Shown here in pieces: positions 38,437 through 56,440 of a DNA stretch of 64,000 nt. The DNA comes from Mangrovicoccus sp. HB161399 (GTDB taxonomy: Bacteria; Pseudomonadota; Alphaproteobacteria; Rhodobacterales; Rhodobacteraceae). Both the position numbers and the translations under genes were made by a program. Every line of letters begins with the position of its first letter. The first letter of the stretch is position 1. The notes below the pieces were generated by a model. The model saw nothing but the letters and a program-made list of their open reading frames with translations, was not told the DNA's origin and searched no databases. The stretch lies in NCBI RefSeq assembly GCF_013184745.1, contig NZ_JAATVU010000009.1, forward strand, positions 1 to 64,000, written 5' to 3'.

Positions 38437-38490
38437 TTAATATTGGTTAATGTCGGCGGCATCCGAAAATCAATTTTTCAGGAATTTGCC

Positions 38491-40542
38491 ATGACCAATC
38501 TGACCGGTACCCTCTCAACGGTGGGGTCCATCTACGACGGCTACGACGCTTCGGAACTGAGCGGTCCGATCAATGTCGAACAGCTGGCCGTCAACGGCAC
38601 GACCTATCTCTATGTCAGCGCATACTACGATGACGGCGTCCAGGTGCTCAGCATCGACGGCAGCGGCACGCTGACCGGCGTGACCAGCGTGGCGCACAGC
38701 ACCTCCAGCCCGCTCAACGGAGCCGACTCGCTGAAGGTGGTGTCGGTCGGCAACCGGAAGTTCCTGGTGGTCGGCGCAGCAGATTCCGACGCGCTCAGCG
38801 TGTTCCGCATCGACACGTCGTCGGGCAGCACCGAAGGCCACCTGACCTTCGTCAGCAGCATTTCCGGCTCCGACATCGCGGGCTATGCGGGGGCGCTCGA
38901 CTACGTGCACGGCCTGACCGTCCTGCGCGAGGGGCAGGGCAGCGCGCTGTTCGCCAGCGTCGCCTATTACGGCGATGCCATCGCGACGTTCGAGCTGGAC
39001 TACGACGGCAACCTCTCCATCAAGGATGCGGTCTTCGACACCGAGGGCACGAACCTCCATCTCGACGGCGCGACCGCTCTCGACAAGATGTCCATTGCGG
39101 GAACCACGTATCTCTACGTGTCGGGCTATTCCGACAACGGCATCACGGTCATGTCGGCGAATGTCGGCAACGGCAACCTGAACGTGGTGGCAAACTTCAC
39201 CAACGGCGTGAGCTACACCAGCCTGGCGGCGGTCATCTGGAACGGCGAAAGGCTGCTGGTCGCGGCGGGCGACGGCTATATCGACGTCTTCAAGATCAAG
39301 AACAACGGCACCATCGAGCTGGAGGCCCGGACCGAGGACGGCGACGCTGACTCCTACTACCCGGCGGCTTTCGGGCTGATCACCCTCGACGGGATCGGAT
39401 ATCTGGTCGCCAAGGAGCAGAACTACGACCGCATCGGGCTCTATTCGATCGAAGACGACTATTCGCTGGCGCTGGTCCAGCGGGTCGGCGGAGATCCGGG
39501 CTACGACGCCGTGCGGGGCTGGACGCTGGTCGAGATTGCCGGCCGCAAATACCTGCTTTCCGCGGCATATTCCGACGGCGGCGTGACCGTGACCGAGATC
39601 GGCGGCGACAATGACTATCTTGTCGGCAGCGACGGGGCGGACCGGATCGCGGGGCTGCGCGGCGACGACGTCCTGGCCGGGCTCGAGGGCGGTGACAGCC
39701 TTGCCGGCGGGGCCGGGGAGGATGTCCTGGTGGGGGCGCAGGGCGCCGACACGCTGCTGGGCGGCGCCGATGACGACGTCCTGGTCGGCGGGCTGGGGAA
39801 CGACTTGATGGAAGGCGGCGCGGGCGCCGACATCCTGAAGGGGGGGCTGGGCGCCGACATGCTCAGCTATGCCGGGTCCGGCGGCAGCGTCGGGATCAAC
39901 CTGGCGTCCGGAGCCGCCTCGGGCGGCCATGCGGCGGGCGACTATTTCCGCGGCTTCGAGGACATCCGCGGATCGGATTACGGCGACACCCTGACCGGCG
40001 ACAGCGGCGCCAACAGGATCGAAGGCGAGGCCGGGTCGGACAGGATCCGCGGCGGCGCGGGCGGCGACAAGATGTTCGGCGGCAACGGGTTCGACAAGAT
40101 CTGGGGCGGCAGCGGCTGGGACCGGATCGACGGCAACAACGGCTCCGACAGCCTCTACGGCGAAGGCGGGGGGGACAAGCTCAACGGCGGCGGCGGCAAC
40201 GACCTGCTCGACGGGGGGACGGGCGACGACACGCTGAGCGGCAACGGCGGCAACGACACCCTGCTCGGCGGCACGGGCGATGACCAGCTGACCGGCAATG
40301 GCGGGGCGGATGTCTTCGTCTTCGAGGAAGGCTTCGGCGATGACGTGATCACCGATTTCGACCTGTCCCGCGACAAGCTCGACCTGTCGGCGCTCGACGG
40401 CATCAATTCGCTGGCCGAGTTCAAGGCAAGCGCGTTCAACATCGCCGGCGATGTCTTCGTGATGGGCGAGGACGGGCTGTCCTCGATCCAGATCATCGGC
40501 CTGTCGGAGAACGATTTCACCGCGTCGAACTTCATCTTCTGA
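38491..40542 (+). CDS. Secreted RTX protein with N-terminal beta-propeller
   Basis: The protein is 683 residues with no Sec signal. Residues ~1-365 are repeating blades (YLYVSAYYDDGVQVLSIDG, FASVAYYGDAIATFELDYDG, YLYVSGYSDNGITVMSANVG, YLVAKEQNYDRIGLYSIE), a beta-propeller of the lactonase-like type. Residues ~371-606 hold many calcium-binding RTX nonapeptides of the GGxGxDxLx form (GGAGADILKG, GGNDTLLGG). The tail ends with a type I secretion-type FTASNFIF. Start 38491 follows AGGAA. Type I export is expected, but no hlyB/hlyD/tolC genes are here. It sits between mrcA and prfB, flanked by hairpins on both sides, like an insertion into a core operon. Confidence 0.9.
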   Translation: MTNLTGTLSTVGSIYDGYDASELSGPINVEQLAVNGTTYLYVSAYYDDGVQVLSIDGSGTLTGVTSVAHSTSSPLNGADSLKVVSVGNRKFLVVGAADSDALSVFRIDTSSGSTEGHLTFVSSISGSDIAGYAGALDYVHGLTVLREGQGSALFASVAYYGDAIATFELDYDGNLSIKDAVFDTEGTNLHLDGATALDKMSIAGTTYLYVSGYSDNGITVMSANVGNGNLNVVANFTNGVSYTSLAAVIWNGERLLVAAGDGYIDVFKIKNNGTIELEARTEDGDADSYYPAAFGLITLDGIGYLVAKEQNYDRIGLYSIEDDYSLALVQRVGGDPGYDAVRGWTLVEIAGRKYLLSAAYSDGGVTVTEIGGDNDYLVGSDGADRIAGLRGDDVLAGLEGGDSLAGGAGEDVLVGAQGADTLLGGADDDVLVGGLGNDLMEGGAGADILKGGLGADMLSYAGSGGSVGINLASGAASGGHAAGDYFRGFEDIRGSDYGDTLTGDSGANRIEGEAGSDRIRGGAGGDKMFGGNGFDKIWGGSGWDRIDGNNGSDSLYGEGGGDKLNGGGGNDLLDGGTGDDTLSGNGGNDTLLGGTGDDQLTGNGGADVFVFEEGFGDDVITDFDLSRDKLDLSALDGINSLAEFKASAFNIAGDVFVMGEDGLSSIQIIGLSENDFTASNFIF

Positions 40543-41816: not shown

Positions 41817-42656
41817 TCAGGGCCGTTCCATCAGCATGGTGAAGAATCCGGGGAAATAGCGGCCCTCGGCGATGCGCTCTTCCGAGAGGGCGGCATAGGC
41901 CGCCTCCTCGGCGAACAGCTCCTCCGGCTCCGCGACCGGCCCGTAGCGGTTGATGCTGGTGGAAATCAGCCGCAGCCCGGCTGCCTCCATCCAGCCCCAG
42001 ACCTCCTGCAGCTTGTGCTGGCTTTCCTGCGGATGCAGCACCTGGTCGCGGAACACCGACGCCAGGTGTTCCGGATCGGGGCTCTGCGGCATGGCGCGGC
42101 CGAAGGCGGCCAGCGCGGCCGCTTCGCCCTCGCGCTCCAGCAGCCCGCGCCAGTGGCGCAGGAAGGGCAGGCGCCCGGGCGCGTGATAGAGCCCGAGAAA
42201 GAACAGCCCGCCCGACGGCACGAAGCCCGCGACGTGGTCGAAGGCGGCGCGGCAGTCATGGGTGTGGTGCAGCACGCCGATCGACAGGGTCAGCGCGGGC
42301 GGCGTGGCGGGCCGGTAGGCGAACAGGTCGGACTGCACGAAGCGCGCGCCCGAGTCGGTGGCCTCGGCCACCCTGCGGGCCCGCTCCAGCGCCGTCGCGC
42401 TGAAATCGACGCCCTCCGCCCGCGCGCCGTAATGCAGCGCCAGCGCGTTCGACGCCCAGCCGGTGCCGCAGCCGATCTCCACCGCCGACAGGCCCGGCCC
42501 GGCCTCGGCCAGCGTCGCGTCGAGATCGGGATAGGCGGACAGCGGATTGGCGCGGGCGCGGGCAATGGCGGTCGCGGGATCGTCGAAATGGTTGTAGGGC
42601 AGCAGGTCGTAGAAGTCGCGCACCGTGCGGTCCGAAGGGGCGAGCGTCGTGGTCAC
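41817..42656 (-). CDS. SAM-dependent methyltransferase (last gene of carbamoyltransferase operon)
   Basis: The protein is 279 residues from GTG at 42656. The start overlaps the Rieske gene stop (GTGA), and GGAAGGA lies just upstream. A class I methyltransferase: FYDLLPYNHFDD near the N-terminus, motif I VEIGCGTGWASNALALHYGA, the acidic loop GVDFSATALERA, and motif IV region LTLSIGVLHHTHDCRAAF. The C-terminal part (QVLHPQESQHKLQEVWGWME, then a YGPVAEPEELF stretch) resembles methyltransferases with a C-terminal cap. Substrate unknown; position in the operon suggests O- or N-methylation of the same product that is carbamoylated and oxidised. The open frame continues upstream only as antisense of the Rieske gene. 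Confidence 0.88.
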   Translation of the reverse strand: MTTTLAPSDRTVRDFYDLLPYNHFDDPATAIARARANPLSAYPDLDATLAEAGPGLSAVEIGCGTGWASNALALHYGARAEGVDFSATALERARRVAEATDSGARFVQSDLFAYRPATPPALTLSIGVLHHTHDCRAAFDHVAGFVPSGGLFFLGLYHAPGRLPFLRHWRGLLEREGEAAALAAFGRAMPQSPDPEHLASVFRDQVLHPQESQHKLQEVWGWMEAAGLRLISTSINRYGPVAEPEELFAEEAAYAALSEERIAEGRYFPGFFTMLMERP

Positions 42657-43957
42657 CGGAATTTTCCTTCCAACATCCGGGCGCCGAGCCCGAGTCCGAT
42701 CCCGAGCAGCACCAGTGCCGCCCAGGCAATCCCGCCGCCCGCCGCCAGCCCGCCGACCAGAGCCGCGGCCACCAGCCCGGCGGCGGCCTTCTGTGCAGCC
42801 TGCAGCCGCCGCACGAGGCGCCGGCAGGTCAGGCAGTTCGGCAGGTGCAGCGCGGCGCGGCTGGTATCGGTGCCTTCCGGCGCAGGGGCGGAGGCGGCAT
42901 GGTCGTAGCCGCGGTGATGCGGCAGGTGGCGGCCGAACCTGTCGACCCAGCGGCGGTAGGCGATCACCGTCGGATCGGAGGTGTTGAGCGGCATCCACAG
43001 CTCGCGCAGCGGGCGGCCCAGCCGCTCGGTCTCGGCATGCTGGCCGATCACCAGCGCCATGTCCTGCTCGAGGATGGCGCATTGGGTCAGGTGCTCCATC
43101 CAGCGCGGCTTGCGGCGTTCGCGGGCCGGGTTGAAGTTGGAGAACTTGCGGTAGAGCAGGCGGCAGCGCCCGGGTCCCAGCGGCAGCGAGATCAGGTCGA
43201 GCCCGGCGATCTTCGCGGCGTCGCGGTATCGGGTGCGGTATTTCAGCATGCCGGGCGCGACGAAGGACACCTCCGCGCGCTCGACCGGCGAGGCGCCCGC
43301 GCGCTCCAGCCCGACCGAGCGGAAGGCGGAGGTGAAGCCTGCCGCGCCGCGGTCCTCGGTGTCGAACAGGATCGGCTTGGCCATCGAGCGGTGGCCGCCG
43401 CCCCTGAGCCCGTGATGCGCGACATGGACATGGGCGATGTCGATGGCGTTCTCGATCAGGTAGCCCTGGTCATAGGGCAGGTCGATCTGGAAGGTGACGG
43501 CATGGATGCCCGGCGCCTCCAGTTCCGGCGATCGCGGGATCGCCGCCTCGTCGGCCAGTGCCGGATCGCCCGGCCAGATCCAGATGACGCCCTGCACGAC
43601 CGCCAGCGGGAAGCCGCGGACATCGGCGCGGGGGGGATAGTTGCGGTTGGGCAGAAGCTGCGGGATCGCGCTGCAGCGGCCCGCGGGATCGAAGCACCAG
43701 CCATGGTAGAGGCATTCGAGATGGCCGTCGACGACACGCCCGTCCGACAGCCGCGCGGCGCGGTGCGGGCAGCGGTCGAGCACGCAGGCGGGCGCCCCGT
43801 CCGCTCCGCGGAACAGCGCGAAGCCCTCGCCATGGACGGTGACGCGGGTCACGGTGCCGGGTTCCAGATCGGCCAGGAAGGACACGGCCTGCCAGCCGTT
43901 GCGCCAATCCGCGACGGCCTGCTGCCCGGCGGGGCCGATTTCTTCCTGGACCGTCAT
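42653..43957 (-). CDS. Rieske oxygenase of pheophorbide-a-oxygenase-like type with C-terminal CxxC and membrane tail
   Basis: The protein is 434 residues. The N-terminal Rieske domain has the [2Fe-2S] ligands in CVLDRCPHRAARLSDG and LECLYHGWCFDPAG (CxH...CxxH). A PaO-like catalytic domain follows, with the mononuclear-iron motif region NAIDIAHVHVAHHGL and QIDLPYDQGYLIENA. Near the C-terminus is LPNCLTCRRLVRRLQ, a CxxC, then two short hydrophobic helices (about residues 388-425). C-terminal CxxC plus membrane segments are features of the PAO/Tic55/PTC52 group of plants and cyanobacteria. Likely a membrane-bound hydroxylase or demethylase of a hydrophobic or bulky substrate. Its start overlaps the SGNH stop (ATGA). 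No reductase gene is adjacent. Confidence 0.9.
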   Translation of the reverse strand: MTVQEEIGPAGQQAVADWRNGWQAVSFLADLEPGTVTRVTVHGEGFALFRGADGAPACVLDRCPHRAARLSDGRVVDGHLECLYHGWCFDPAGRCSAIPQLLPNRNYPPRADVRGFPLAVVQGVIWIWPGDPALADEAAIPRSPELEAPGIHAVTFQIDLPYDQGYLIENAIDIAHVHVAHHGLRGGGHRSMAKPILFDTEDRGAAGFTSAFRSVGLERAGASPVERAEVSFVAPGMLKYRTRYRDAAKIAGLDLISLPLGPGRCRLLYRKFSNFNPARERRKPRWMEHLTQCAILEQDMALVIGQHAETERLGRPLRELWMPLNTSDPTVIAYRRWVDRFGRHLPHHRGYDHAASAPAPEGTDTSRAALHLPNCLTCRRLVRRLQAAQKAAAGLVAAALVGGLAAGGGIAWAALVLLGIGLGLGARMLEGKFR

Positions 43958-44898
43958 TGCGGGCCGCGCTCCTTGGCCTCGCGCAGCGCGCGGCGCATCG
44001 CCTTCCAGTCCGGATCGGCCGCCTTCAGCCGCTTGCAGTGCAGGGTGATCTTCTCCACCGCTTCCTCCTCGCCGTGGCGGTCGAACTGCGCGGCGATCAG
44101 CGGCAGCATCGCCACCGCCAGCGCGCCATGGCCGATCGGCCCGCCATGGGTGCCGTCCGCCGCCCGGTCGAGCCGCATCACGAAATAGCGGTGGCGCAGG
44201 ATCCAGCGGTTGTCGAGCGCGCCGAGAAAGGGCGCCAGCCGCGGCCGGTTGCCCAGGTTGGGGCGCAGATGCTCGGTGGCGATCACGTAGGGAATGCGCG
44301 CATGTTCCAGCAGCCCCTGGGCCAGCAGGATGTTCTTGATCATCGCGATCCGGCCGAGATTGTCGTTGTAGAGCTCCAGGTAGCCCTCAAGCGGCGGCGG
44401 CAGGTTGTCCAGCCGCTCCGGCGGGATCGAAGCCAGGTTGAACCGCTCGAAGCCGTTGGCGTCGCAGTATTCCATCCGCTGCGGCGGCGGGAAGTAGAGC
44501 AGCACCAGGTCGAATTCGAGCGCGGGCACGTGCTTCAGCAGCATCCGCGTGACGTAGTCGCCCGACGCCCCGCCGACCGACAGGTTGAGCACGTTCACCT
44601 CTTCGCGCGGCACGCCGAGCGCCAGGCTGAGATGGTCGGCGACGCGGCTGCCGTAGGTCAGTTCCTCGGCCAGGCCGGTGCCGAAGGAATTGCTCTCGCC
44701 GATCACGCAGATCCGGATCCGCGCCTCGGGATCGTATTCCTCGCCGCGGAAGCCCGCGCTGTTGAACCGGTAGCTGACAGTGTCGCTGACATCCTTGCCG
44801 TAGCGCGTCGTCACCGCGCCGGGGATGTGGTCGTCCTGGCGGATGTCGCAGGGCTGGACCGTCCATTCCAGCGTCTCCGAAGGGGTCATCAAGGCCAT
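43954..44898 (-). CDS. SGNH/GDSL-type hydrolase
   Basis: The protein is 314 residues with no signal peptide. SGNH blocks are visible: block I CVIGESNSFGTGLAEE with the catalytic Ser (GES instead of GDS), block II Gly in NLSVGGASGDYVTRM, and block V DGTHGGPIGHGALAVAM with catalytic Asp and His. The N-terminal GKDVSDTVSYRFNSAGFRGEE is a motif seen in SGNH proteins near carbamoyltransferases. It may remove or transfer an acyl or carbamoyl group, or act as an O-acyltransferase partner. It is coupled to the Rieske gene (ATGA) and 21 bases after the carbamoyltransferase gene. Confidence 0.85.
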   Translation of the reverse strand: MALMTPSETLEWTVQPCDIRQDDHIPGAVTTRYGKDVSDTVSYRFNSAGFRGEEYDPEARIRICVIGESNSFGTGLAEELTYGSRVADHLSLALGVPREEVNVLNLSVGGASGDYVTRMLLKHVPALEFDLVLLYFPPPQRMEYCDANGFERFNLASIPPERLDNLPPPLEGYLELYNDNLGRIAMIKNILLAQGLLEHARIPYVIATEHLRPNLGNRPRLAPFLGALDNRWILRHRYFVMRLDRAADGTHGGPIGHGALAVAMLPLIAAQFDRHGEEEAVEKITLHCKRLKAADPDWKAMRRALREAKERGPQ

Positions 44899-44919
44899 GG
44901 GCGGCTCCGTTTCGCAGCG

Positions 44920-46746
44920 TCAGTCCGGGGCAAGGTCATCGCGGTAGTCCCTGAGCAGGCCGGCGGGCTGCGCCGCCTTGGTCATCAGGCAGTCCTCCAC
45001 CACCAGGAGGTCGATTTCGGAACCCATGAAGCAGCGGTAGGCGTCTTCGGGGCTCTCCACGATCGGCTCGCCGCGCAGGTTGAAGCTGGTATTGACCAGG
45101 ATCGGGCAGCCAGTGGCGTCGTGGAAGGCCGACAGCAGCGCGTGGAAGCGGGGCGAGACCTCCGGATCGACGGTCTGCACCCGGGCGCTGTAATCCAGGT
45201 GGGTGACCGCCGGGATGTCCGAGCGCGGCAGGGCCAGCCGCTCGGGCACCGGCGCGTCTGGGCCGGGATCGTTGACGATGTGGCGCCGCTCCTCCTTCAG
45301 CGGCACGACTTCCAGCATGTAGGGGCTGGGGCCGTTCAGCGCGAACCACCCGTCGGCATGTCCGGCCATGACCGCCGGGGCGAAGGGGCGGAAGCTCTCG
45401 CGGTACTTCACCTTGAGGTTCAGGGTCTTCTGCATCCCGGGATGGCGCGGATCGGCGAGGATCGACCGGCTGCCGAGCGCGCGCGGCCCGAATTCCATCC
45501 GCCCCTGCATCCAGCCCGCGACCTGGCCCTCGCTCAGCGCGGCGGCGACGCGGCGGTCGATCTCCTCCGGCGGATGCACCTCCAGCGCGGCCCCCAGCCT
45601 GCGCAGCCGCGCCTCGGCTTCGCGCGGGTCATGGGCCGGGCCGAGCAGGGCACCCTGCATCGCGTCGGGGCTGAGGATCTCGCGCGGCTGGCCCAGCGTT
45701 CCGTGCCAATAGGCCAGCGCCGCGCCGAGCGCCGCGCCCGCATCGCCGGCGGCGGGCTGCACCCAGAGCCGGTCGATCAGCCCCTCGGCGAGGATCTTGC
45801 CGTTGGCCACCGAGTTCAGCGCCACGCCGCCGGCCATGCAGAGATCGCGCATGCCGGTTTCGGCCACGGCATTGCGCACCATGCGGCGCAGGATTTCCTC
45901 GATCACCGCCTGCAGAGAGGCCGCCATGTCCATGTGGAACGGCAGCAGCGGGTCCTCGGCGCCGCGCCGCTTCCGGCCAAACAGCGCCTCCATCCGCGCG
46001 GTGATCATGCTCTGCCCGGCGGCGAAGCCGAAATAGTCCATGTCGAGCCGGAACGACCCGTCGCCGCGCAGGTCCAGCAGGTTGTCGAGCATCGTCCGGG
46101 CATGGACCGGCTGGCCATAGGGGGCGAGACCCATCACCTTGTATTCGCCCGACAGCACCTTGAAGCCGAGATACTGGGTGAGTGCGCTGTAGAGCAGACC
46201 CGGCGAATGTGGGAAGCGCTGTTCCTTGAGCAGCTCCACGGCGTTGCCGCTGCCCGCCGCCATCGAGGCGCAGCTCCATTCGCCGACCCCGTCCAGCGTC
46301 AGGATCGCGGCGTCCTCGAAGGGCGAAGGGTAGAAGGCCGAGGCGGCATGGCTCTGGTGATGCGCGGCGAAGGCCAGCGGCGCGGCGAAGTCCGGCGAGA
46401 TGCGGCGCAGCTCGCGGCGGATCTGCGCGCCGGTGAACAGCTTGCCGCCGATCCAGCCCGGCATGGCCGCGCGGAACGACCAGAACCCGTCGGGGGCGAG
46501 CGCCGCATGGGTCGCCACCAGGCGGCGGAACTTCTCGCCGGGCTGCTCGTGGAACACCACCTGGCCGATATCGCCGGGCTGCCATCCGGCGGTCTCCAGG
46601 CAGGCGCGGATCGCGCGGGACGGGAAGGCCGGGTCGAATTTCCTGCGGCTGAAACGCTCTTCCTGCGCCGCCGCCACGATCCGCCCGTCCTCCACCAGTG
46701 CTGCCGCGCTGTCATGGTAGTAGGCGGAAAGGCCGAGGATCTTCAT
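44920..46746 (-). CDS. O-carbamoyltransferase, NodU/CmcH family
   Basis: The protein is 608 residues. The N-terminal domain begins MKILGLSAYYHDSAAALVED, with AAQEERFSRRKFDPAFPSRA, the metal-binding histidines in FAAHHQSHAASAFYPSPFED, and LTLDGVGEWSC and GEYKVMGLAPYG. The C-terminal YrdC-like domain has GRMEFGPRALGSRSILADPR, VKYRESFRPFAPAV and NTSFNLRGEPIVESPEDA. The family transfers a carbamoyl group from carbamoyl phosphate via carbamoyl-AMP to a hydroxyl of antibiotics, Nod factors or toxins such as saxitoxin (SxtI). Start 46746 overlaps the stop of the small membrane gene (ATGA). The acceptor here is unknown. Confidence 0.94.
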   Translation of the reverse strand: MKILGLSAYYHDSAAALVEDGRIVAAAQEERFSRRKFDPAFPSRAIRACLETAGWQPGDIGQVVFHEQPGEKFRRLVATHAALAPDGFWSFRAAMPGWIGGKLFTGAQIRRELRRISPDFAAPLAFAAHHQSHAASAFYPSPFEDAAILTLDGVGEWSCASMAAGSGNAVELLKEQRFPHSPGLLYSALTQYLGFKVLSGEYKVMGLAPYGQPVHARTMLDNLLDLRGDGSFRLDMDYFGFAAGQSMITARMEALFGRKRRGAEDPLLPFHMDMAASLQAVIEEILRRMVRNAVAETGMRDLCMAGGVALNSVANGKILAEGLIDRLWVQPAAGDAGAALGAALAYWHGTLGQPREILSPDAMQGALLGPAHDPREAEARLRRLGAALEVHPPEEIDRRVAAALSEGQVAGWMQGRMEFGPRALGSRSILADPRHPGMQKTLNLKVKYRESFRPFAPAVMAGHADGWFALNGPSPYMLEVVPLKEERRHIVNDPGPDAPVPERLALPRSDIPAVTHLDYSARVQTVDPEVSPRFHALLSAFHDATGCPILVNTSFNLRGEPIVESPEDAYRCFMGSEIDLLVVEDCLMTKAAQPAGLLRDYRDDLAPD

Positions 46747-46922
46747 TGCGCCCTCCGCCCGGCCAGCCGCGGCTGGCGCGCAGGCGCGCGCCAGTAGCTC
46801 TCCGCCTCCGGCGCGCGGGCAAGCTCCAGCGGGTCCGGACGGCGCAGGCGCCAAAGCAGCGCGCAGGGCCAGAAAGCCAGATAGTACAGCCCCGCCATTG
46901 CGAGCGTCACCGCGATCCGCAT
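46743..46922 (-). CDS. Small hydrophobic protein in front of carbamoyltransferase (59 aa)
   Basis: This frame has 59 residues, starting ATG at 46922 and ending in a TGA that overlaps the carbamoyltransferase start. It begins MRIAVTLAMAGLYYLAFWPC, one transmembrane helix of about 23 residues, then a basic Arg/Pro-rich tail (LLWRLRRPDPLELARAPEAE). Small membrane proteins (SxtJ-like) commonly accompany this carbamoyltransferase family, so it may hold the enzyme at the membrane. The four-base overlap with the next gene and the seven-base spacing from the previous one support that it is real. Confidence 0.75.
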   Translation of the reverse strand: MRIAVTLAMAGLYYLAFWPCALLWRLRRPDPLELARAPEAESYWRAPARQPRLAGRRAQ

Positions 46923-46929
46923 CGCGGTC

Positions 46930-47091
46930 TCAGAACATCGGATAGATGTCGGGGTCTTCGCCCTTCAGGCGGCGCAGCTTGGCGCGCAGCCGGTCGAGCT
47001 TGGTCGGCGGCGCGGCATCCGCTTCGCGGGGGTGCGGCGCGCTGTCCTCCTGCGGCGGCTCGCTTGCCGCCTCGGGCCCGGTTCCCTCCAA
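46930..47091 (-). CDS. Small acidic/basic peptide, first gene of the operon (53 aa, TTG start)
   Basis: The frame starts at TTG (47091) with an excellent ribosome site, GGGGAGGA, five bases before, and ends at 46930. Residues ~1-30 are acidic and Pro/Ala-rich, residues ~31-43 are a basic helix (KLDRLRAKLRRLKG), and the C-terminus is GEDPDIYPMF. The IYxxF end recalls the C-terminal IYTxF-type end of DUF5989 partner proteins of carbamoyltransferases; that comparison is from memory and only suggestive. It ends seven bases before the small membrane gene. No in-frame ATG or GTG is available. Confidence 0.55.
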   Translation of the reverse strand: MEGTGPEAASEPPQEDSAPHPREADAAPPTKLDRLRAKLRRLKGEDPDIYPMF

Positions 47092-47169: not shown

Positions 47170-48465
47170 TCAGCCGGCGAGCGTGCCCTCGGGGGTGAGG
47201 CGGGTCTTGCCTCCCAGATAGGCATGCAGCGCCTCGGGCAGATCGACGCCGCCGTCCTCGGTCTGGCCGTTTTCCAGAACCGCGATCAGCGCGCGGCCGA
47301 CCGCCAGGCCAGAGCCGTTCAGCGTGTGCAGGAACTCCGGCTTGCCGCCCTCCGAGGGACGGAAGCGGGCGTTCATCCGCCGCGCCTGGAAGTCGCCGCA
47401 ATTCGAGACGGAGCTGATCTCGCGGTAGGTGTCCTGGCCGGGCAGCCAGACCTCGAGGTCATGGGTCTTCACCGCGCCGAAGCCGATGTCGCCCGAGCAC
47501 AGCACAACCGTGCGGAAGGGCAGGCCCAGCCGCTGCAGGATGTCCTCGGCGCAGGCGGTCATGCGGTCATGCTCGGCCTTGCTCTCGTCCGGCTTGACGA
47601 TGGAGACCATCTCCACCTTCTCGAACTGGTGCTGGCGCAGCATGCCCGAGGTGTCGCGCCCCGCGCTGCCGGCCTCCGAGCGGAAGCACTGGGTATGGGC
47701 GACCATGCGGCGGGGCAGGGAGGCCTCGTCGACCATCATGCCGTTGACGGTGTTGGTCAGCGTCACCTCGGCGGTCGGCACCAGCCACCAGCCTTCGCGG
47801 GTCTGGTAGCTGTCCTCGCCGAATTTCGGCAGCTGCCCGGTGCCGTAGAGCATTTCCTCCAGCACCAGCACCGGCGTCCAGGTCTCTTCCAGGCCGTTGG
47901 CGTCGACATGGGTGTCGAGCATGAACTGCGCCAGCGCCCGGTGGATGCGCGCGACCGCGCCCTTGAGCACGACGAAGCGCGATCCCGACAGCTTGGCCGC
48001 CGTCTCGAAATCCATCCCGGCCTTCACGCCCGCGATCTCGAAATGCTCCTTCGGCTCGAAGCCGAAGGCCTTCGGCGTGCCGATCCGGCGGATTTCCACG
48101 TTGTCCGCCTCGTCGGCGCCGTCCGGGACCTCTTCGGACATGATGTTCGGCAGCGTCATCAGGAGCGTCCTCAGCTCCTCGTCCTCGGCCTTGGCCTCGG
48201 TCTCGAGCCGGGCGATCTCGTCCTTCTTGGCGGCGACCAGCGCGCGCAGCCGCTCGAACTCGGCCTCGTCGCCCGAGGCCTTGGCCTTGCCGACCTCCTT
48301 GGAGGCGGCGTTGCGCTCGGCCAGGGCGGCCTCGGCGGCGGCGATCTTGGCGCGGCGGTCGGCATCGAGGGCCAGCACCTGCTCCGAGACGCCCGAAAGC
48401 CCCCGGCGGGCCATGGCGGCGTCGAAAGCGGCGGGGTTGTCGCGGATCATGCGGATGTCGTGCAT
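47170..48465 (-). CDS. serS: Seryl-tRNA synthetase
   Basis: This class II synthetase has 431 residues. The N-terminal long coiled-coil arm runs over residues ~27-100 ([40 protein letters not shown]). The catalytic core has the class II motifs: [20 protein letters not shown], motif 2 [20 protein letters not shown] with [29 protein letters not shown], and motif 3 [17 protein letters not shown]. It charges tRNA-Ser (and tRNA-Sec if present). The carbamoyltransferase operon lies 78 bases downstream on the same strand. Confidence 0.98.
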
Positions 48466-48754
48466 TTTGGCCTCCGGGGGTGGTTTGCCGGTCTCCTAGA
48501 CGATCCCGGTTGCGGGGCCAAGGGCCTGATGGCCGCGTGCCGGACCCGCAGTTGCGGCGCCCCGCGGCGGGGCGCGCGGCGGACGGGACCAGCCGTGCCG
48601 CTGCCCACGAAATCAGCGATTGTTGCCGATGGGTAAATAAAATGTCGCATGAATGACAATTTTCTTGAAAGAGTTAACGCATCACATAGTGATTTCCGAA
48701 ATTGCCGAAGTCTGGCGCCACGGAATTTCCGGCGCACAAGCCAAGGACCACAAG
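48466..48754. promoter_or_regulatory. Divergent promoter region between serS and autotransporter
   Basis: The half near the autotransporter (about 48605-48720) is much richer in A and T than its surroundings and contains GGGTAAATAAAATG, TTGAAA at 48665 and a GTTAAC. This is the likely promoter for the giant gene. No exact -10/-35 pair of good quality can be fixed. The reading frame of the autotransporter opens at 48653, but the ribosome-site-like AAGGAC favours translation from 48755. Confidence 0.45.
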
Positions 48755-51700
48755 ATGTTAGTTCGCAGTCAGCTCCGGGCCTCCGCCCGCGGCACGGGAT
48801 CGTTTTGCTTCAAGGGCATATGTCTCACGACGGGCTCGGCGCTGGCCATTGCCGCCGCGCTGCTGCCGGGCCGGGCCCCGGCCGATTGCCTTGCCTCGGA
48901 TGGCGGGTTCGACACCGCCTGCACCGGGACGCTCGGCCCCGTCGACGTGACGCGCACCGGCACGACGGCGGACCAGACCTACAGCCTGACCTTCCGCGAC
49001 GCGGACAATGCCGGCACCGAGGGCGTGCCGGGCGACGGCCCGGTCTGGAACATGGACCTCTCGGCGTCTTCCAGCGGCACCCAGCCGGCCGGGGCGGTCC
49101 TGGAGGCCGACCTGGAAGGCGGCTTCGAGGTCATGGGCGTGGACGGGGCGGCCATTGCCGTGAGCACCGCCGGAAGCCAGGGTTTCTGGCCGTCGGAAAA
49201 CAAGGGCACGGGCAACCGGACGGGCAAGGACGGCACGGCGGGCGGAAATGGCGGCGAGACGGAGGTTTCGGTCGCCGGCGTCAGCGCGAGCGCCAGCATT
49301 TCGGGGCGCGACACCGCGGTCATGATCGAGTCGAAGGCCGGGGATGGCGGCCGGGGCGGCACCGGCAAGTCCAGCAGTTTCGGCAACGGCCATGGCGGCA
49401 CCGGCGGGACCGGCGGCACGGGCGGCACGGTCGATGCGGCTCTGACGGACACTGAAGTGGCGGGCTGGGCCTCGCTCTGGATCGAGACCGGCGGCGGCAC
49501 CGGCGGCCAGGGCGGTTCGGGCAAGGCCTGCAACGCTTCGGCCACCGGCGGCGCTGCCGGGGATGGCGGCAAAGGGGGGCAGGCGGATCTGGTCCTTGAC
49601 GGCGTCTCGGCAACCGGTGGCATCATGGTCCGGTCGCTGGGCGGCGATGGCGGCACTGGCGGCGTGGGCGAGATCACCGCCGGGCTCTGCAGCGGCGGCG
49701 GCTATGGCGGGCAGGGCGGCGCGGGCGGCGACGGCCAGGCGGTCTCGGTGACGGCGGCAGACGGCGCCGGGGCCGTGTCGATCCGGACGACCGAGGGCGC
49801 CTATGCCGGGCTGACCGCCGAAAGCATCGCCGGCGACGGAGGGACCGGCGGCGACGCCAGCGTCTCGACCGATGTCGGCAATTCAAGGGGCGGCGACGGC
49901 GGACATGGCGGCGCCGGCGGGTCGGTGCAGGTGGACCTGATGCCGTCCGGCAGCACCGCCACGGCCAGCATCGAGACGCAGGGGGACGGTGCGCCCGGCC
50001 TGCTGGCGCGCAGCTATGGCGGTGCCGGCGGCAATGGCGGCGGCTCGGGCAGCCTGATCGGCAAGGGCGGCGCGGGCGCCGGTTCGGGCCCCGGCGGCAC
50101 GGTCGGCGTCAGCTATGCCGGGTCGATCCTGACGGACGGCGACGGCGCGGATGGCATCATGGCACAGTCGGTCGGCGGCTTCTCGGGCGACGGCACGGCC
50201 TCGGGCGGACTGGTCTCCTACGGCGCAAGCAGCGAAAGCGCGGGCGGCGGCGGCGACGTCACGGTCAGCTTCGCCGGGGACGGCCCCGGCATCGGGACCC
50301 AGGGCGACGATTCCGACGGCATCTTCGCGCAGAGCCAGGGCGGCGGCGGCGGCAAGGCCTCGTCCTCGGCCGGGCTGGTGGCGCTGTCAGGCGCGGCCGA
50401 TGGGTCCTCGGGCGGCGACGGCGGCGCGGTCAGCGTCACGGCCTCGGGCAGCATCGCCACATCGGGCGACCGCAGCCGGGGCGTCGTGGCGCAATCGGTC
50501 GGCGGCACCGGCGGCGACGGCGGCAGCGCGCGCGGCCTGGTCTCGATCGGCGGCACCGGCTCCGGCGGCGGCTCGGGCGGCGCGGTCAGCCTGGCGTCGG
50601 ATGCCGATGTGTCAACCGCGGGCGCGGATGCGGCCGGGCTGCTGGCCCAGTCGGTCGGCGGCGGCGGCGGCGCGGCAGGCTCGGCCGCGGGGATCACGGC
50701 GATCGGCGGCGCGGGCGGCAGCGGCGCCACGGGCGGCGATGTCGCCGTCGATGCGGGCGGCAGCGTTGCCACGGCCGGGACCGGTGCGGACGGCATCTTC
50801 GCCCAGTCGGTCGGCGGCTCGGGCGGGCTCGGCTCCAGCAGCCTCGCGCTTTCGGCGGGCTTCGCGATGAGCATCGCGGGCGACGGGGGCAGCGGCAATG
50901 ACGGCGGCGCGGTGAGCCTTTCGACCCAAGCCGGGTCCAGCGTCTCGACCGGCGGCACCAATGCCCGCGGCATCGCGGCCGCCAGCATCGGCGGCGGCGG
51001 CGGCCATGGCGGCAACGACCTGACCGCGGCGGCAGATGCGGGTCCGGCGGTCTCCGTCGCGCTCGGCGGCTCGGGCGGCGCGGCCGGCGACGGCGGCGAT
51101 GTCTCGCTCGGCCTGCTCGGCCTGATCTCCACCGCGGGGGACAATGCCGCCGCGGTCTCGGCGCTGAGCGTGGGCGGCTCGGGCGGCTCTGCCGGGACCG
51201 CGATTGCCGCCGGAACCTCCGGTGTCGGCGCGCTGTCCCTCTCGGTGGGCGGCAGCGGCTCGGGCGGCGGCGACGGCGGCAGCGTCACCGTGTGCCGCGA
51301 CGGCGGCAGCTGTTCCGGCAGCGGCGCGGCTGCAGCGATCTCTACCGGCGGCGACGGCTCCGCCGGGATCGAGGCAATTTCGGCGGGCGGCGGCGGCGGC
51401 AGTTCGGGCATGGCCGTTTCCGCGGCCTACGGCATGGGGACCGACCTTGCAATCGGCGGCTCGGGCGGGGCCGGCGGAGCGGGCGGCGATGTCGCGGTCA
51501 CCTCGTCGGGCGGGATCGCGACCGGCGGCTCTTCCTCGGCGGCGATCCTGGCCGCCAGCGTGGGCGGATCGGGCGGTGCGGCGCATTTTGTCGGCGCTTT
51601 CGACACGCTGGGCGAGGAAGCGGTCAACCTGGCGGTCGGCGGCGCGGGCGGAGCGGCCGGGGGCTCCGGCAGCGTGGCCGTGGTCTCGACGGACAGCCTG

Positions 51701-54700
51701 TCCACCGCGGGAGTCCTTTCCCCGGGCATCCAGGCGGTCAGCCAGGCGGGCAGCGGCGGCAGCGGATCGGCCGATGTCTCGGGCTCGGGCGGCACGCTGG
51801 GGTCGGTCAACCTTGCCATCGGCGGCGAAGGCGGCGGCGGCGGCACGTCGGGCAATGTCTCGGTCGACTGGCGCGGCGATGCGCTGGAAACGGCGGCGGA
51901 CCAGGCGGCCGGCATCGTCGCGCTCAGCGGCGCGGGATCGGGCGGCATCGGCGGCTTCACCCTGGGCGGCGATGCGCTCGGCGTCGGCTCGGCCAACCTG
52001 TCGCTCGGCGCGTCAGGCGGCAGCGGCGGGGCGGCCGGCAGCGCAAGCATCACGGCGGGCGGCGCGATTTCCACCGCGGGCGCAGCCTCGGACGGCATTG
52101 CCGCGGCCAGCATCGGCGGCAATGGCGGCCGCGGCAGCGCCTCGGCGAGCAGCGGGGGCCTGTCCCAGGGAGCAGCCTCGGTTACGCTGGGCGGCGGCGG
52201 CGGCACGGCAGGACAATCGGATGCAGCCAGCGTCGAGACCCTCGCGGGGGCGTCCATCGCGACCCTGGGCGCGGACTCCGCAGGGATCCGCGTGCTGAGC
52301 CTGGCCGGCAGCGGCGGCCAGGGCGGCATGGCGATCGAGGGCAATGCCGACATCGCCATCGATGACGAGTTTCCGGAGGGCAGCGTCGCGCTGACCCTGG
52401 GCGGGTCCGGCGGCACCGGCGGCAGCTCCGCTCTGGCGCTGGCGACCAACCGCGCGGCAATCTCCACGGCGGATTTCAACAGTGCGGGCATCCAGGTGCA
52501 GTCGATTGCCGGAGACGGCGGCGCCGGGGGCATGGCCATCGCGGGCACGCTCAACGCGACCGCCGAGGAAACGCTCGACGCTGCGGCGGTGCTGGGCGGC
52601 GGGGGCGGCGGCGGCGGACAGGCAGGCATGGCGCAGGCCGCCAACAGCGGGACCATCGCGACCGCGGGGGACAATTCGGACGGCATCCTCGTCCAGTCCA
52701 TCGGCGGCTCGGGCGGCAGCGGCGGGCTGAGCTACAACCTGCTTGCGGATGTCCGGCCGGGCACCACGCTCAACTCTTCCTTCGGGACCTCCGTCGGCGG
52801 TTCGGGCGGCAATGGCGGCGTCGGCGGGGCCGCGTCGGCGACGAACAGCGCGGCGATCTCGACCGCGGGGACCAGCTCCAGCGGCATCTACGTCCAGTCC
52901 GTGGGCGGCAATGGCGGCAATGGCGGGTTCGGCGGATCCGGCCTCTTCGGCCTCGGCGCGGATTACGGTGCGTCCGGCTCCGGCGACAGCACGGTCAAGC
53001 TGACATTCGACTTCACCGTCGGCGGCTCGGGCGGCGCCGGTGCCTTGGCCGGTTCGGCGCAGGCCGAGAACGATGCCGGCGGCGCCATCGTCACGGCAGG
53101 AGACGGAGCCTACGGCATCTTCGTCCAGTCGGTGGGCGGCAATGGCGGCGATGGCGGGCTCGCCTCGAACTACGCCGCGCAGGTCGGCGGGTCCTGCGAC
53201 AACCCCGTGACCGAGCAGATCTACAACTGCACCGACGAGGACGGCAACAAGACCGAGATCTCTTCGGACATCGAAGTCACGATCGGCGGCACCGGCGCGG
53301 CGGGCGCGGATGCCGATTCCGCCACGGTGTCGAATGACGGAACGATCGCCACTGCGGGCGATGTGGCCCATGCCATCGTCGCGCAATCGGTCGGCGGCGG
53401 CGGCGGCATCGGCGGCTCCACCGCGACGGACCGTTCCTCCTTCGTGACCCGCACGGCCGGAGGCAGCGTCTCCGCCGCGGCGGAAGCGGAGGATGACGGC
53501 ACCGCCGAGATCGCGGGCTGGCTGAATGCCGATATCCGGATCGGCGGCACGGGCGGCGCGTCGGGCGACGGCGCGGCCGCGGCGGTGGACAACAGCGCGG
53601 CCATCGAGACGGCGGGCGAGGGCGCCTTCGGCATCCTCGCGCAATCGGTGGGCGGCGGCGGCGGCACCGGCGGCGTGGCAAACGACACCTCCACCCAGCG
53701 TTCCGTGCAGATCGGCGGATCGGGCGGCGGCGGCGGCGATGGCGGCGCGGTCACCGTCGCCAATTCCGGCGCGATCTCCACAGCTGGCCATGGCAGCGTG
53801 GCGCTCTTCGCCCAGTCGGTGGGCGGCGGCGGCGGGGCCAGCGGCAATGGCTGGTCCTTCCAGGGGCTCTCGGATCTGGTCCTGGTCATCGGCGGCGCGG
53901 AGGGCGCCAGCGGCGACGGCGGCGCGGTCGCCGTCACCTCGGACGGCGCGGAGCTGTCCGCGTCCGGGGCGCAATCGGCGGGCATCTTCGCCCAGTCGGT
54001 CGGCGGCGGCGGGGGCACCTATCTGGGGGCCGGCAATGCCGGCGGCGGCAGCGGCCTGATGGTCAGCGGCACGGGCGGCGCCTCGGGCGACGGCGGCGCC
54101 GTCAGCGTCACGGCAAGCTCGGACATCGCCGTGGGGACCGCCGGCGACGGCAACGTGGCCTCGATCGGCATCTTCGCCCAGTCGGTCGGCGGCGGCGGCG
54201 GCTTCGGCGGCTCGATGATTCTGGGCGACCATGACCGGATCGGCACGCGGGTGCTGCAGGCCGGGCAGGCGACCTCGGGCGACGGCGGCGCGGTCACGGT
54301 GGAGGCCACCGGCCGGATCGCCACCCGGGGCGACAACTCGGTCGGCATCTTCGCGCAATCCGTGGGCGGCGGCGGCGGCGTCCAGGGCAGCGACGACGCC
54401 ACGTCGGATGACGGCAGCTACGTGGGTTCCTTCGGCGGCAGCGGCGTTGCCGGGGCGGTCAGCGTGACCTATGGCGGCGCGCAGCTCTCCACCACGGGGG
54501 CCGGGGCGCACGGCATCTTCGCGCAATATGCCGGGGGAACCGGCTCGGCAGCCGCGGTGGCGGAGACCACCGTCGATGTCGCGGTGACCGGCAATGTCTC
54601 GGCCACCGGCGCGGGCGCGCATGCCATCCACGTGGAGAATGCCGGCAGCGGCGCGGGGCTGGGCGCGGTCACGATCGGCGCGGGAGCCGAAGTGCATGGC

Positions 54701-56440
54701 GGCGCGGCGGCGGTCTACGACAACGCGCTGAGCGGCGCGGGGATCCTGTTCCACACCGGCCGGGACGGCACGATCTCGAACGCCGGAACGGTAAGCGCGG
54801 AAAGCGGCATCGCCATCCACATATTCGGCGGCGGCCAGGTCACCGTGTCGAACACCGGCACGATCTCGGGCGAGATCCTCGGCGGGGCAGTGGCCGCCGC
54901 GGACACGGCTGCGGCGGACGAAGCCGCGTCGGAGATCCTCGTCGACAACCTGCAGGGCGGCCTGCTCGAGGCGGGCGCGCTCCTTGAGGTCGGGCGCCTG
55001 CGCAACTGGGGCGAGCTCTATGTCGGCGGCATCGGCGAGATCGGCCGCTCGGAGATCGCCGGCGACCTGCAGCACCGCGGCGGCAGCCTGCATTTCGACA
55101 TCGACCTTGCGTCCGGCACCGCCGATCTGCTCAGCATCGGCGGCCGGGCGGAGCTGGACGGCCGGCTGGAGCTGGACGTGATCGAGGTGCCGGACACCCC
55201 GGCCGGGGTTCAGACCGTCCGCGTGCTGGAGGCGGCGGAGGGCATCGCGGCGTCGGACCTGTCGCTGCGGCCCTCGGTGGTGGCGCGCTACCAGCTCGAC
55301 CCGGCCTCGGCCACCGCGCTCGACCTGACCTACGAGATCGACTACGCCAACGCGGCGCTGGTGCGTTCGCTGAATGCCAGCCAGGCCGAGCTGACCTCCT
55401 ATTTCAACCGGCTCTACGCGGCGGGCGCGCTCGACGCGGATCTGGCCGCAAGCCTGATCGATGTCGAAAGCTACGGCGGCTATGCCGAGGTGATGAACGC
55501 GCTCGGGCCGGAGCTGGCGCTGAGCAACGAGATCGCCCGGCTGGGCAGCACGCTGCGCTTCGCCGGGAGCCTGTTCAGCTGCCCGCACGCGGGCGAGGGC
55601 CGGGTCTGGAACGAGGACGGGCGCTGCGGCTACGTGACGGCCAGCGCGAACCGGCTGGTCCGCGATGCTGCGGACGGCGCCTCGGGCTTCGACCAGGACG
55701 GCGTGCGGATCGCGGCTGGCGGCCAGGTGCTGCTCGGCGGCGATGTCGCCATCGGCGGCGCGCTTGCCTATGACCGCACCTGGCTCGACACCGATGCGGG
55801 CGGATCGAGCGACGGCGGCAGCTTCTCCGGCGGGGTGTCGGCCAAGCGGTTCCTCGGCCCTTGGGAGCTGGGCGCCGCGGCCTATCTGGGCCATGGCAGC
55901 TTCGACAACGACCGCCGCGCGGGCGATGCCGTGGCCAGCGGCCGGCAGGAGCAATGGGTCTACGGCGCCGAGCTGCGCGCGGGCTACCTGATCGACCGCG
56001 GCGGCTGGTTCCTGCGGCCGCGGCTGGATCTCGGCCTGGTCCGCTTCGGCGACAGCTCCTACGCCGAGACGGGCGGCGGCGGGCTGGCGCTGGAGATCGA
56101 TGCCGGGGGCGAGACGCTGCCCTACCTGCGCCCGGCGCTGGAGATCGGCGGCCGGTTCGCGACCCCGGGAGGGACCGAGATCCGGCCGAGCGCGACGCTG
56201 TCGGTGACGCGGTTCGGCGGCGACGGCAGCTTCGGCGCGACCGCGCGCCTGGCGGAGGCGCCGTCCTCGGTGGCGCCGTTCGGCTGGGAGTCGGAGTTCG
56301 ACGCGACGCAGGTCGACCTGGCGGCGGGCCTGACCATCGCGGCGCCGGGCGGGGCCTTCCTCGATATCGGCGGCTTCGGCCACCTGTCGGAGAACGAGCG
56401 GGATTTCGGCGGGTCGCTGCGCTGGGTCATCCCGTTCTGA
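48755..56440 (+). CDS. Giant Gly-rich autotransporter (type V secretion), ~2561 aa
   Basis: The signal peptide at the N-terminus (SALAIAAALLPGRAPA-D) directs Sec export. The passenger, residues ~45-2270, is an enormous run of Gly/Ser/Ala-rich repeats with the recurring core (I/L)xAQSVGGxGG, predicted to be a beta-helix or fibre. The C-terminal ~280 residues are the outer-membrane barrel (LFSCPHAGEGRVW, AAGGQVLLGGDVAIGGALAY, RAGYLIDRGGWFLRPRLDLG) and end with the aromatic LRWVIPF expected for BAM recognition. Cysteines are few and mostly near the ends. Likely function is adhesion or surface coating. The uninterrupted 7.7-kb frame shows it is under selection. It is neighboured by a pentapeptide-repeat membrane protein. 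Confidence 0.93.
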   Translation: MLVRSQLRASARGTGSFCFKGICLTTGSALAIAAALLPGRAPADCLASDGGFDTACTGTLGPVDVTRTGTTADQTYSLTFRDADNAGTEGVPGDGPVWNMDLSASSSGTQPAGAVLEADLEGGFEVMGVDGAAIAVSTAGSQGFWPSENKGTGNRTGKDGTAGGNGGETEVSVAGVSASASISGRDTAVMIESKAGDGGRGGTGKSSSFGNGHGGTGGTGGTGGTVDAALTDTEVAGWASLWIETGGGTGGQGGSGKACNASATGGAAGDGGKGGQADLVLDGVSATGGIMVRSLGGDGGTGGVGEITAGLCSGGGYGGQGGAGGDGQAVSVTAADGAGAVSIRTTEGAYAGLTAESIAGDGGTGGDASVSTDVGNSRGGDGGHGGAGGSVQVDLMPSGSTATASIETQGDGAPGLLARSYGGAGGNGGGSGSLIGKGGAGAGSGPGGTVGVSYAGSILTDGDGADGIMAQSVGGFSGDGTASGGLVSYGASSESAGGGGDVTVSFAGDGPGIGTQGDDSDGIFAQSQGGGGGKASSSAGLVALSGAADGSSGGDGGAVSVTASGSIATSGDRSRGVVAQSVGGTGGDGGSARGLVSIGGTGSGGGSGGAVSLASDADVSTAGADAAGLLAQSVGGGGGAAGSAAGITAIGGAGGSGATGGDVAVDAGGSVATAGTGADGIFAQSVGGSGGLGSSSLALSAGFAMSIAGDGGSGNDGGAVSLSTQAGSSVSTGGTNARGIAAASIGGGGGHGGNDLTAAADAGPAVSVALGGSGGAAGDGGDVSLGLLGLISTAGDNAAAVSALSVGGSGGSAGTAIAAGTSGVGALSLSVGGSGSGGGDGGSVTVCRDGGSCSGSGAAAAISTGGDGSAGIEAISAGGGGGSSGMAVSAAYGMGTDLAIGGSGGAGGAGGDVAVTSSGGIATGGSSSAAILAASVGGSGGAAHFVGAFDTLGEEAVNLAVGGAGGAAGGSGSVAVVSTDSLSTAGVLSPGIQAVSQAGSGGSGSADVSGSGGTLGSVNLAIGGEGGGGGTSGNVSVDWRGDALETAADQAAGIVALSGAGSGGIGGFTLGGDALGVGSANLSLGASGGSGGAAGSASITAGGAISTAGAASDGIAAASIGGNGGRGSASASSGGLSQGAASVTLGGGGGTAGQSDAASVETLAGASIATLGADSAGIRVLSLAGSGGQGGMAIEGNADIAIDDEFPEGSVALTLGGSGGTGGSSALALATNRAAISTADFNSAGIQVQSIAGDGGAGGMAIAGTLNATAEETLDAAAVLGGGGGGGGQAGMAQAANSGTIATAGDNSDGILVQSIGGSGGSGGLSYNLLADVRPGTTLNSSFGTSVGGSGGNGGVGGAASATNSAAISTAGTSSSGIYVQSVGGNGGNGGFGGSGLFGLGADYGASGSGDSTVKLTFDFTVGGSGGAGALAGSAQAENDAGGAIVTAGDGAYGIFVQSVGGNGGDGGLASNYAAQVGGSCDNPVTEQIYNCTDEDGNKTEISSDIEVTIGGTGAAGADADSATVSNDGTIATAGDVAHAIVAQSVGGGGGIGGSTATDRSSFVTRTAGGSVSAAAEAEDDGTAEIAGWLNADIRIGGTGGASGDGAAAAVDNSAAIETAGEGAFGILAQSVGGGGGTGGVANDTSTQRSVQIGGSGGGGGDGGAVTVANSGAISTAGHGSVALFAQSVGGGGGASGNGWSFQGLSDLVLVIGGAEGASGDGGAVAVTSDGAELSASGAQSAGIFAQSVGGGGGTYLGAGNAGGGSGLMVSGTGGASGDGGAVSVTASSDIAVGTAGDGNVASIGIFAQSVGGGGGFGGSMILGDHDRIGTRVLQAGQATSGDGGAVTVEATGRIATRGDNSVGIFAQSVGGGGGVQGSDDATSDDGSYVGSFGGSGVAGAVSVTYGGAQLSTTGAGAHGIFAQYAGGTGSAAAVAETTVDVAVTGNVSATGAGAHAIHVENAGSGAGLGAVTIGAGAEVHGGAAAVYDNALSGAGILFHTGRDGTISNAGTVSAESGIAIHIFGGGQVTVSNTGTISGEILGGAVAAADTAAADEAASEILVDNLQGGLLEAGALLEVGRLRNWGELYVGGIGEIGRSEIAGDLQHRGGSLHFDIDLASGTADLLSIGGRAELDGRLELDVIEVPDTPAGVQTVRVLEAAEGIAASDLSLRPSVVARYQLDPASATALDLTYEIDYANAALVRSLNASQAELTSYFNRLYAAGALDADLAASLIDVESYGGYAEVMNALGPELALSNEIARLGSTLRFAGSLFSCPHAGEGRVWNEDGRCGYVTASANRLVRDAADGASGFDQDGVRIAAGGQVLLGGDVAIGGALAYDRTWLDTDAGGSSDGGSFSGGVSAKRFLGPWELGAAAYLGHGSFDNDRRAGDAVASGRQEQWVYGAELRAGYLIDRGGWFLRPRLDLGLVRFGDSSYAETGGGGLALEIDAGGETLPYLRPALEIGGRFATPGGTEIRPSATLSVTRFGGDGSFGATARLAEAPSSVAPFGWESEFDATQVDLAAGLTIAAPGGAFLDIGGFGHLSENERDFGGSLRWVIPF
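50150..54540 (+). repeat. Degenerate Gly-rich passenger repeats (AQSVGG units)
   Basis: Inside the autotransporter the pattern 'GDGADGI(M/F)AQSVGG(S/G)GG ... GGDGG(A)V' recurs many times with period about 55-100 residues (165-300 bases), for example near 50310, 50485, 50645, 50800, 52685, 52885, 53120, 53380, 53630, 53815, 53990 and 54175. The copies diverge at DNA level, so slippage is less likely than with perfect repeats. Such repeats open long antisense frames. Confidence 0.8.

Follow-up and report, generated by a model that had tools for sequence, protein, structure and literature searches.

A compact operon of Mangrovicoccus that appears to combine a reduced carbamoylation module with a PaO-like Rieske oxygenase

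What could a bacterium make with a carbamoyltransferase, a Rieske oxygenase and a methyltransferase that are encoded side by side with no scaffold-making gene in the same operon? This question is raised by six open reading frames (ORFs) of Mangrovicoccus sp. HB161399 at positions 41817–47091 of the window, by which we mean the whole stretch of 64,000 nucleotides analysed here (contig NZ_JAATVU010000009.1, positions 1 to 64,000). With a probability of roughly 0.6, we propose that the operon is a reduced carbamoylation module of the SxtI/SxtJ/SxtK/SxtL type joined to a pheophorbide a oxygenase (PaO)-like Rieske enzyme, and that its site of action is the inner membrane, where it modifies a lipophilic acceptor that is produced elsewhere. 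The ORF list and the sequence place all six genes on the minus strand. SM1, which encodes a small protein, is followed after a 7-base gap by a second small gene, SM2, which shares an ATGA overlap with the carbamoyltransferase gene; a 21-base gap leads to the gene of an SGNH-like protein, which overlaps the Rieske gene by ATGA, and the Rieske gene overlaps the methyltransferase gene by GTGA. A preliminary description of this DNA had listed six genes on one strand with ATGA or GTGA overlaps and gaps of 7–21 bases, and all of these coordinates hold; its view of a tailoring enzyme set lacking a scaffold-making gene is supported as well. Pfam confirms the carbamoyltransferase, Rieske/PaO and methyltransferase families, and no scaffold-making gene was found within the operon.

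The carbamoyltransferase (44920–46746, 608 aa) was assigned to the SxtI/TobZ/GdmN type of O-carbamoyltransferases by Pfam, motifs and a tree. It matches PF02543 (E 2.3e-86, 290.8 bits) and PF16861 (E 9.5e-70, 234 bits), both above cut-off, and carries HHxxH at position 129 and FGPRALG at position 419, aligned with the solved novobiocin enzyme. Both motifs have established roles in carbamoyltransferases, HHxxH being the metal site. Relatives in the Protein Data Bank are the novobiocin carbamoyltransferase, GdmN and TobZ, and enzymes of the TobZ family convert carbamoyl phosphate and ATP into carbamoyl-adenylate. Carbamoyltransferases of the SxtI type were found in 58 of the 398 proteobacterial genomes of a phylum sample (match at E 1e-150 or better); within the window's own family, the only positives were the window's genome and G049, with at least 20 negatives among the misses listed.

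The usual company of these enzymes was surveyed at 40 of the 61 carbamoyltransferase places outside the window's own in the phylum sample, together with two places added later. At least 30 of the 40 loci have a match of the SM2/SxtJ type (E 1e-3 or better), and at least 34 have a DUF5989-type ORF, which lies upstream in 33 and after the carbamoyltransferase in one (L075); both counts are lower bounds because some loci stop at contig ends. Pfam confirms SxtJ and DUF5989 in example loci, and on the Methylosinus plasmid pMSC49c an AMP-binding protein, a hypothetical protein and an SGNH/GDSL protein stand with SxtJ, DUF5989 and the carbamoyltransferase. A Rieske match was seen in one of the 40 loci, where it is weak and 7 kb away. 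Two proteobacterial loci, L002 (8924–11212) and L077 (14376–16613), encode long Haem_oxygenas_2 iron-containing redox proteins, not Rieske enzymes, near the carbamoyltransferase, and these perhaps represent a different oxygenase in the role of the Rieske enzyme; L002 has, in addition, an SGNH relative and genes resembling SM1 and SM2.

The two small proteins of the operon bear on this comparison. SM2 (46743–46922, 59 aa) has a single hydrophobic, transmembrane-like stretch by hydropathy, and hhalign of four SM2-type against 23 SxtJ proteins matches it to the C-terminal half of SxtJ (PF19588; probability 98.3, E 1.2e-14). On its own SM2 has no Pfam match at E up to 5, and its homologue in L002 matches only positions 67–98 of the SxtJ family model, with 18 bits against a cut-off of 24.4. 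SM1 (46930–47091, 53 aa, TTG start) also has no Pfam match at E up to 5; its N-terminus looks disordered by eye, and it has an amphipathic basic helix and no transmembrane stretch. Profile comparison does not support it as a plain member of DUF5989 (PF19451, SxtK-type), with no match to the model and an hhalign probability of 0.8. The two families share only a C-terminal tail, P-x-I-Y-x-(L/M/V/I)-(F/W/Y), conserved in SM1 as DPDIYPM[FW]. This pattern precedes 47 of 56,516 stop codons in 60 sequences read in six frames, namely in 41 DUF5989-like ORFs (sorted by a motif rule), six SM1 ORFs and no others. Since the sequences were mostly chosen for their carbamoyltransferases, many DUF5989 matches are to be expected, and the weight of the count lies in the lack of any unrelated ORF with the tail. 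A profile search of 164 family genomes found SM1 in three, all of them Rieske-positive, and SM1 is a small-protein family without a name in Pfam or NCBIfam. No solved relative of DUF5989 was found by sequence at E 1, and SxtJ gave only a meaningless match (E 0.21).

The SGNH-like protein (43954–44898, 314 aa, alternative start at 44889) has no Pfam match at E up to 5, and its label of SGNH hydrolase comes from motifs and a profile–profile match to SGNH/GDSL proteins, not from a family model. Block I (G67–S69, with the Ser of GES) and Block V (D248–H251, with the His of DGTH) are present, and a comparison with the profile of six SGNH proteins from other carbamoyltransferase loci gave a probability of 97.1 over 93 columns in the Block I–II region. 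The Asn of Block III (GxND) is absent; PPPQRME is found instead, GxND occurs in none of nine members, and R141 and E143, at the Block III site, are invariant in all nine. The protein has no hydrophobic anchor, unlike L058, the single ordinary example tested, which has one at its N-terminus, and it has no match at E 1e-4 in a plasmid collection. In G1171 (L094, 7219–9156) a double SGNH protein of about 640 residues has Asp instead of the catalytic Ser in its second half, which leaves catalysis uncertain for some copies. Matches to the SGNH profile in G814 and G820 are isolated: the sequence read around them, which in one case runs into a contig end, holds no further operon gene. The last gene encodes a class I methyltransferase dependent on S-adenosylmethionine (41817–42656, 279 aa, GTG start; PF13649, E 4.5e-12, above cut-off), and related methyltransferases stand beside the carbamoyltransferase in L053, L111 and L112 (hhalign 99.9%).

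The Rieske oxygenase (42653–43957, 434 aa) matches PF00355 (E 8.6e-22), PF08417 PaO (E 3.9e-16) and PF19112 VanA_C (E 7.1e-8), all above cut-off. Its Rieske motif (CxH...CxxH) and iron site (D..H....H) are present and invariant in four members, the pair C375-x-x-C378 is invariant in the four full-length members, and a C-terminal hydrophobic stretch, at 391–429 by hydropathy, is found in all four. A C-terminal CxxC and a hydrophobic membrane anchor are traits of PaO. The hydrophobic stretches of SM2 and the Rieske protein agree with the membrane-associated parts foreseen earlier and would point to a membrane-bound acceptor. The best match in NCBIfam is the 4beta-methylsterol monooxygenase SdmA, with 107.8 bits, far under its cut-off of 600; PaO/ACD1-like Rieske oxygenases and SdmA share with the window's enzyme the Rieske and PaO domains, the CxxC and the hydrophobic C-terminus. 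The best solved relatives include dicamba and methylxanthine demethylases, the profile lies nearer to DdmC (E 4e-34) than to SxtDIOX (E 6.7e-24; positions 20–344 aligned), and the closest matches in the plasmid collection are at most 33% identical.

Two candidate substrates were rejected. Tailoring of hopanoids or sterols is unlikely, because SQHop_cyclase_C had no match in any of seven genomes, among which five carry the Rieske gene (control: positive in two of 14 known genomes), and this lack of a triterpene cyclase, like the low score, separates the window's enzyme from SdmA. Breakdown of the cell's own chlorophyll is likewise unlikely, as no photosynthetic reaction-centre match was found in the same genomes (none in seven of seven; control: positive in one of 14 known genomes); this covers the cell's own pigment only and leaves chlorophyll from outside as a candidate substrate.

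The operon is rarely met. The Rieske search was positive in four of 101 relatives (the window's own genome included) and in four of 394 family genomes, three of these being identical with the former; among 385 class genomes the window's own was the only positive. The distinct positive genomes are five: G000 (the window's own), G001, G008, G047 and G1171. In G047, from another genus of the same family, all six genes recur in the order of the window, with the enzymes 43–59% identical, SM1 35% and SM2 22%. G008 and G1171, from two further genera, have SM1–SGNH–SGNH–Rieske–methyltransferase, the two SGNH parts being fused as one protein in G1171, and no intact carbamoyltransferase lies in the operon there, that is, in two of the four readable loci. 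The conserved gene order that the preliminary description had proposed to look for does exist. Beyond the operon, no two of the four loci share a called gene at E 1e-6, with 41 such genes compared for the window, 11 for L010, 9 for L011 and 12 for L094. The operon is real, rare and compact, and the recurrence of its gene order in other genera is more than chance.

An SxtI-type carbamoyltransferase is present in all five Rieske-positive genomes (in G001 in pieces), and neither of the two same-genus genomes without the Rieske gene, G002 and G003, has a match at E 1e-5. G000 and G047 have one such gene each, inside the operon; G008 and G1171 have one intact gene each outside it, in an SxtJ–DUF5989–carbamoyltransferase locus, whose distance to the operon is about 10 kb in G1171 and, on one shared contig, about 137 kb in G008. 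SGNH-type genes follow the carbamoyltransferase in these unlinked loci (in G008, below Pfam cut-offs). A quick tree of 49 rows pairs the enzymes of the window and G047 (SH-like approximate likelihood ratio support 95), with a long branch for the window, and separately pairs those of G008 and G1171 (100). Directly after the methyltransferase gene of G008 (L010, 6556–6928) lies a decayed C-terminal carbamoyltransferase remnant with stops and frame changes, which matches positions of about 430–598 with a best E of about 2e-17; this suggests that a carbamoyltransferase once adjoined the operon there too, at the other end. The corresponding stretch of G1171 shows no carbamoyltransferase remnant.

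Within the window, the operon sits between a plus-strand gene ending at 41807 and a minus-strand gene at 47170–48465, which we take from their sequences to be prfB and serS; a promoter and terminator scan detected nothing. In G001, of the same genus, SM1 and SM2 are found at serS, and the carbamoyltransferase and Rieske genes are fragmented, with pieces spread over four places of three contigs (L009, L097, L121, L122) and breaks inside the genes, which may reflect a rearranged genome or a faulty assembly. At the serS–prfB site of two further genomes of the genus, only an SGNH gene is left: that of G002 (L095, 2547–6463) is 67% identical and is followed by what are presumably remains of an IS66-type transposase, and that of G003 (L096, 6506–7456) is 61% identical and has lost the catalytic Ser and DxxH. 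Both sites look like remnants of a decaying operon. Two plus-strand neighbours were also observed: a very long glycine-rich ORF of 2595 residues adjoining serS (48653–56440), with a C-terminus that resembles an autotransporter barrel by eye, and a repeat-rich protein (38443–40542), by eye probably of the calcium-binding RTX type, which in G002 has a homologue of 61% identity lying between PBP1A and prfB and in G003 has no match there.

How far does the operon resemble known systems? The available portion of PMC2679770 describes, in the saxitoxin cluster, an O-carbamoyltransferase together with SxtJ (405 bp), SxtK (165 bp), the GDSL-lipase-like SxtL and Rieske-type oxygenases; SxtI is proposed there to act with SxtJ and SxtK, and SxtL is thought to take off the carbamoyl group (PMC2679770, PMC2684587, in the portions available). 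As far as the accessible parts of the sources go, genes resembling sxtJ, K, L and O occur in a suomilide cluster (PMC10157211), and a truncated sxtI accompanies the loss of sxtL in Lyngbya wollei (PMC3037375). Judged against these portions, the operon shares with cyanobacterial sxtI–sxtJ–sxtK–sxtL (with sxtH/sxtT) a carbamoyltransferase, an SxtJ-type protein, a small protein, an SGNH/GDSL protein and a Rieske oxygenase, and differs in that SxtJ is halved, the place of SxtK is taken by an unrelated protein that ends in the same tail, the gene order departs from that tabulated in PMC2679770, the Rieske enzyme has a CxxC and a hydrophobic tail, a methyltransferase is added and scaffold genes are absent from the operon. 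The saxitoxin parallel drawn earlier from the carbamoyltransferase and the Rieske enzyme holds for these two and was too narrow, since SM2 corresponds to half of SxtJ, the SGNH-like protein is related to SxtL-like SGNH/GDSL proteins found beside SxtJ and the tail of SM1 resembles that of DUF5989/SxtK. The ordinary SxtJ–DUF5989–carbamoyltransferase module has related carbamoyltransferase, SxtJ and SGNH partners and, in the three loci named above, a related methyltransferase; unlike the operon, it has full-length SxtJ, true DUF5989 and no linked Rieske enzyme.

From the gene content and order, the family ties, the active-site motifs and the hydrophobic stretches observed here, we infer the steps, their order and the substrate as follows. 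With its C-terminal hydrophobic stretch as an anchor in the inner membrane, the Rieske enzyme would hydroxylate or O-demethylate a lipophilic acceptor supplied by other genes, and the methyltransferase would add a methyl group. The carbamoyltransferase would form carbamoyl-adenylate from carbamoyl phosphate and ATP and then cap a hydroxyl group, held at the membrane by SM2 as the remaining half of SxtJ. The SGNH-like protein may transfer or remove an acyl or carbamoyl group, and SM1 may stand in for DUF5989/SxtK, docking by its C-terminal tail. For the carbamoyl step, G008 and G1171 would depend on the ordinary SxtJ–DUF5989–carbamoyltransferase locus, acting in trans. The product would be a lipid or small metabolite that is carbamoylated, methylated and oxidised. 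At the level of chemistry, sequence comparison indicates that the operon probably oxidises, methylates and carbamoylates a membrane-associated molecule.

Several observations weigh against this proposal. Only five positive genomes are known, and the in-trans view stands on two of them. The remnant of G008 follows the methyltransferase and does not occupy the position of the window's carbamoyltransferase, with none in G1171; the unlinked carbamoyltransferases of these two genomes are 95% identical while their Rieske proteins are 76% identical, so the two loci differ in history and the unlinked enzyme may serve another product. The SGNH-like protein lacks the usual Block III Asn, and the catalytic Ser is missing in two of nine members. 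The tail pattern was defined after both families had been inspected, and the replacement of DUF5989 by SM1 is argued from that tail, since the profile comparison shows no homology.

The operon might instead decorate surface glycans, with sugars of capsule, exopolysaccharide or lipopolysaccharide being carbamoylated, methylated and acylated, a role that related carbamoyltransferases may have in other settings. We consider this unlikely, although a Leisingera plasmid carries a 57% identical carbamoyltransferase followed by an SGNH gene, a second carbamoyltransferase-type gene, YjbH, YjbF, a glycosyltransferase and sulfotransferases (the record begins at the carbamoyltransferase gene, so that the comparison covers the downstream side only), and SGNH proteins that act on carbohydrates are described in the accessible part of PMC9487903. 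The operon has no glycosyltransferase, flippase or polymerase gene, no flanking gene is common to the loci, and the SGNH-like protein lacks the N-terminal anchor of L058, the one ordinary example tested. We also know of no precedent for a PaO-like Rieske enzyme acting on sugars.

A still less probable explanation is a loose grouping, in which the Rieske enzyme and the methyltransferase belong to one pathway, such as catabolic O-demethylation, and the carbamoyltransferase to another. The demethylases among the solved Rieske relatives would fit this, as would operons without an intact carbamoyltransferase; the start/stop overlaps, the order kept in another genus, the carbamoyltransferase in five of five genomes and the G008 remnant beside the operon speak for a shared pathway. 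A saxitoxin-like alkaloid pathway or its remnant is highly improbable: the carbamoyltransferase, the SxtJ-like protein, the SGNH-like protein and a Rieske enzyme aligning with SxtDIOX do have sxt counterparts (PMC2679770, in the portion available), but the operon lacks both a polyketide synthase and an amidinotransferase, no gene of its flanks is conserved (sxtA- and sxtG-like genes were not searched genome-wide), its Rieske enzyme is nearer to DdmC and carries the CxxC and hydrophobic tail, and the likeness says little about an alkaloid product because the carbamoyltransferase–SxtJ–DUF5989 module is so widespread.

The reduced carbamoylation module with its Rieske partner remains our preferred explanation, and what is new, as judged from sequence, appears to be a known module, one that serves several bacterial pathways, in an unusual variant with an added PaO-type oxygenase and an unnamed small-protein family. 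Our literature search found no account that joins a carbamoyltransferase, a Rieske enzyme and an SGNH protein in one operon, none that joins a carbamoyltransferase, a Rieske enzyme and a methyltransferase in Rhodobacteraceae, and none of DUF5989; for a carbamoyltransferase with pheophorbide a oxygenase, titles and abstract openings gave no related account. We put forward only tentatively, and as somewhat improbable, the more specific idea that a few proteobacteria use the operon to make a membrane lipid or lipophilic metabolite of a class not yet described, both carbamoylated and oxidised, with SM1 as a new adaptor family whose DUF5989/SxtK-type docking tail, acquired by convergence or left by extreme divergence, would bring the oxygenase and methyltransferase to a carbamoyltransferase whose gene lies inside the operon or at another site of the genome.

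O-carbamoyltransferases are often accompanied by SxtJ and SxtK/DUF5989, for which the portions of the literature available to us state no role beyond "unknown". A minimal version found in nature, in which SxtJ is reduced to a half and SxtK to a substitute with its tail, would indicate which parts matter, and this is testable in a six-gene operon. The operon is also a lead to what may be a new carbamoylated compound, and it points to bacteria using PaO-type Rieske enzymes on something that is unlikely to be a sterol or the cell's own chlorophyll.

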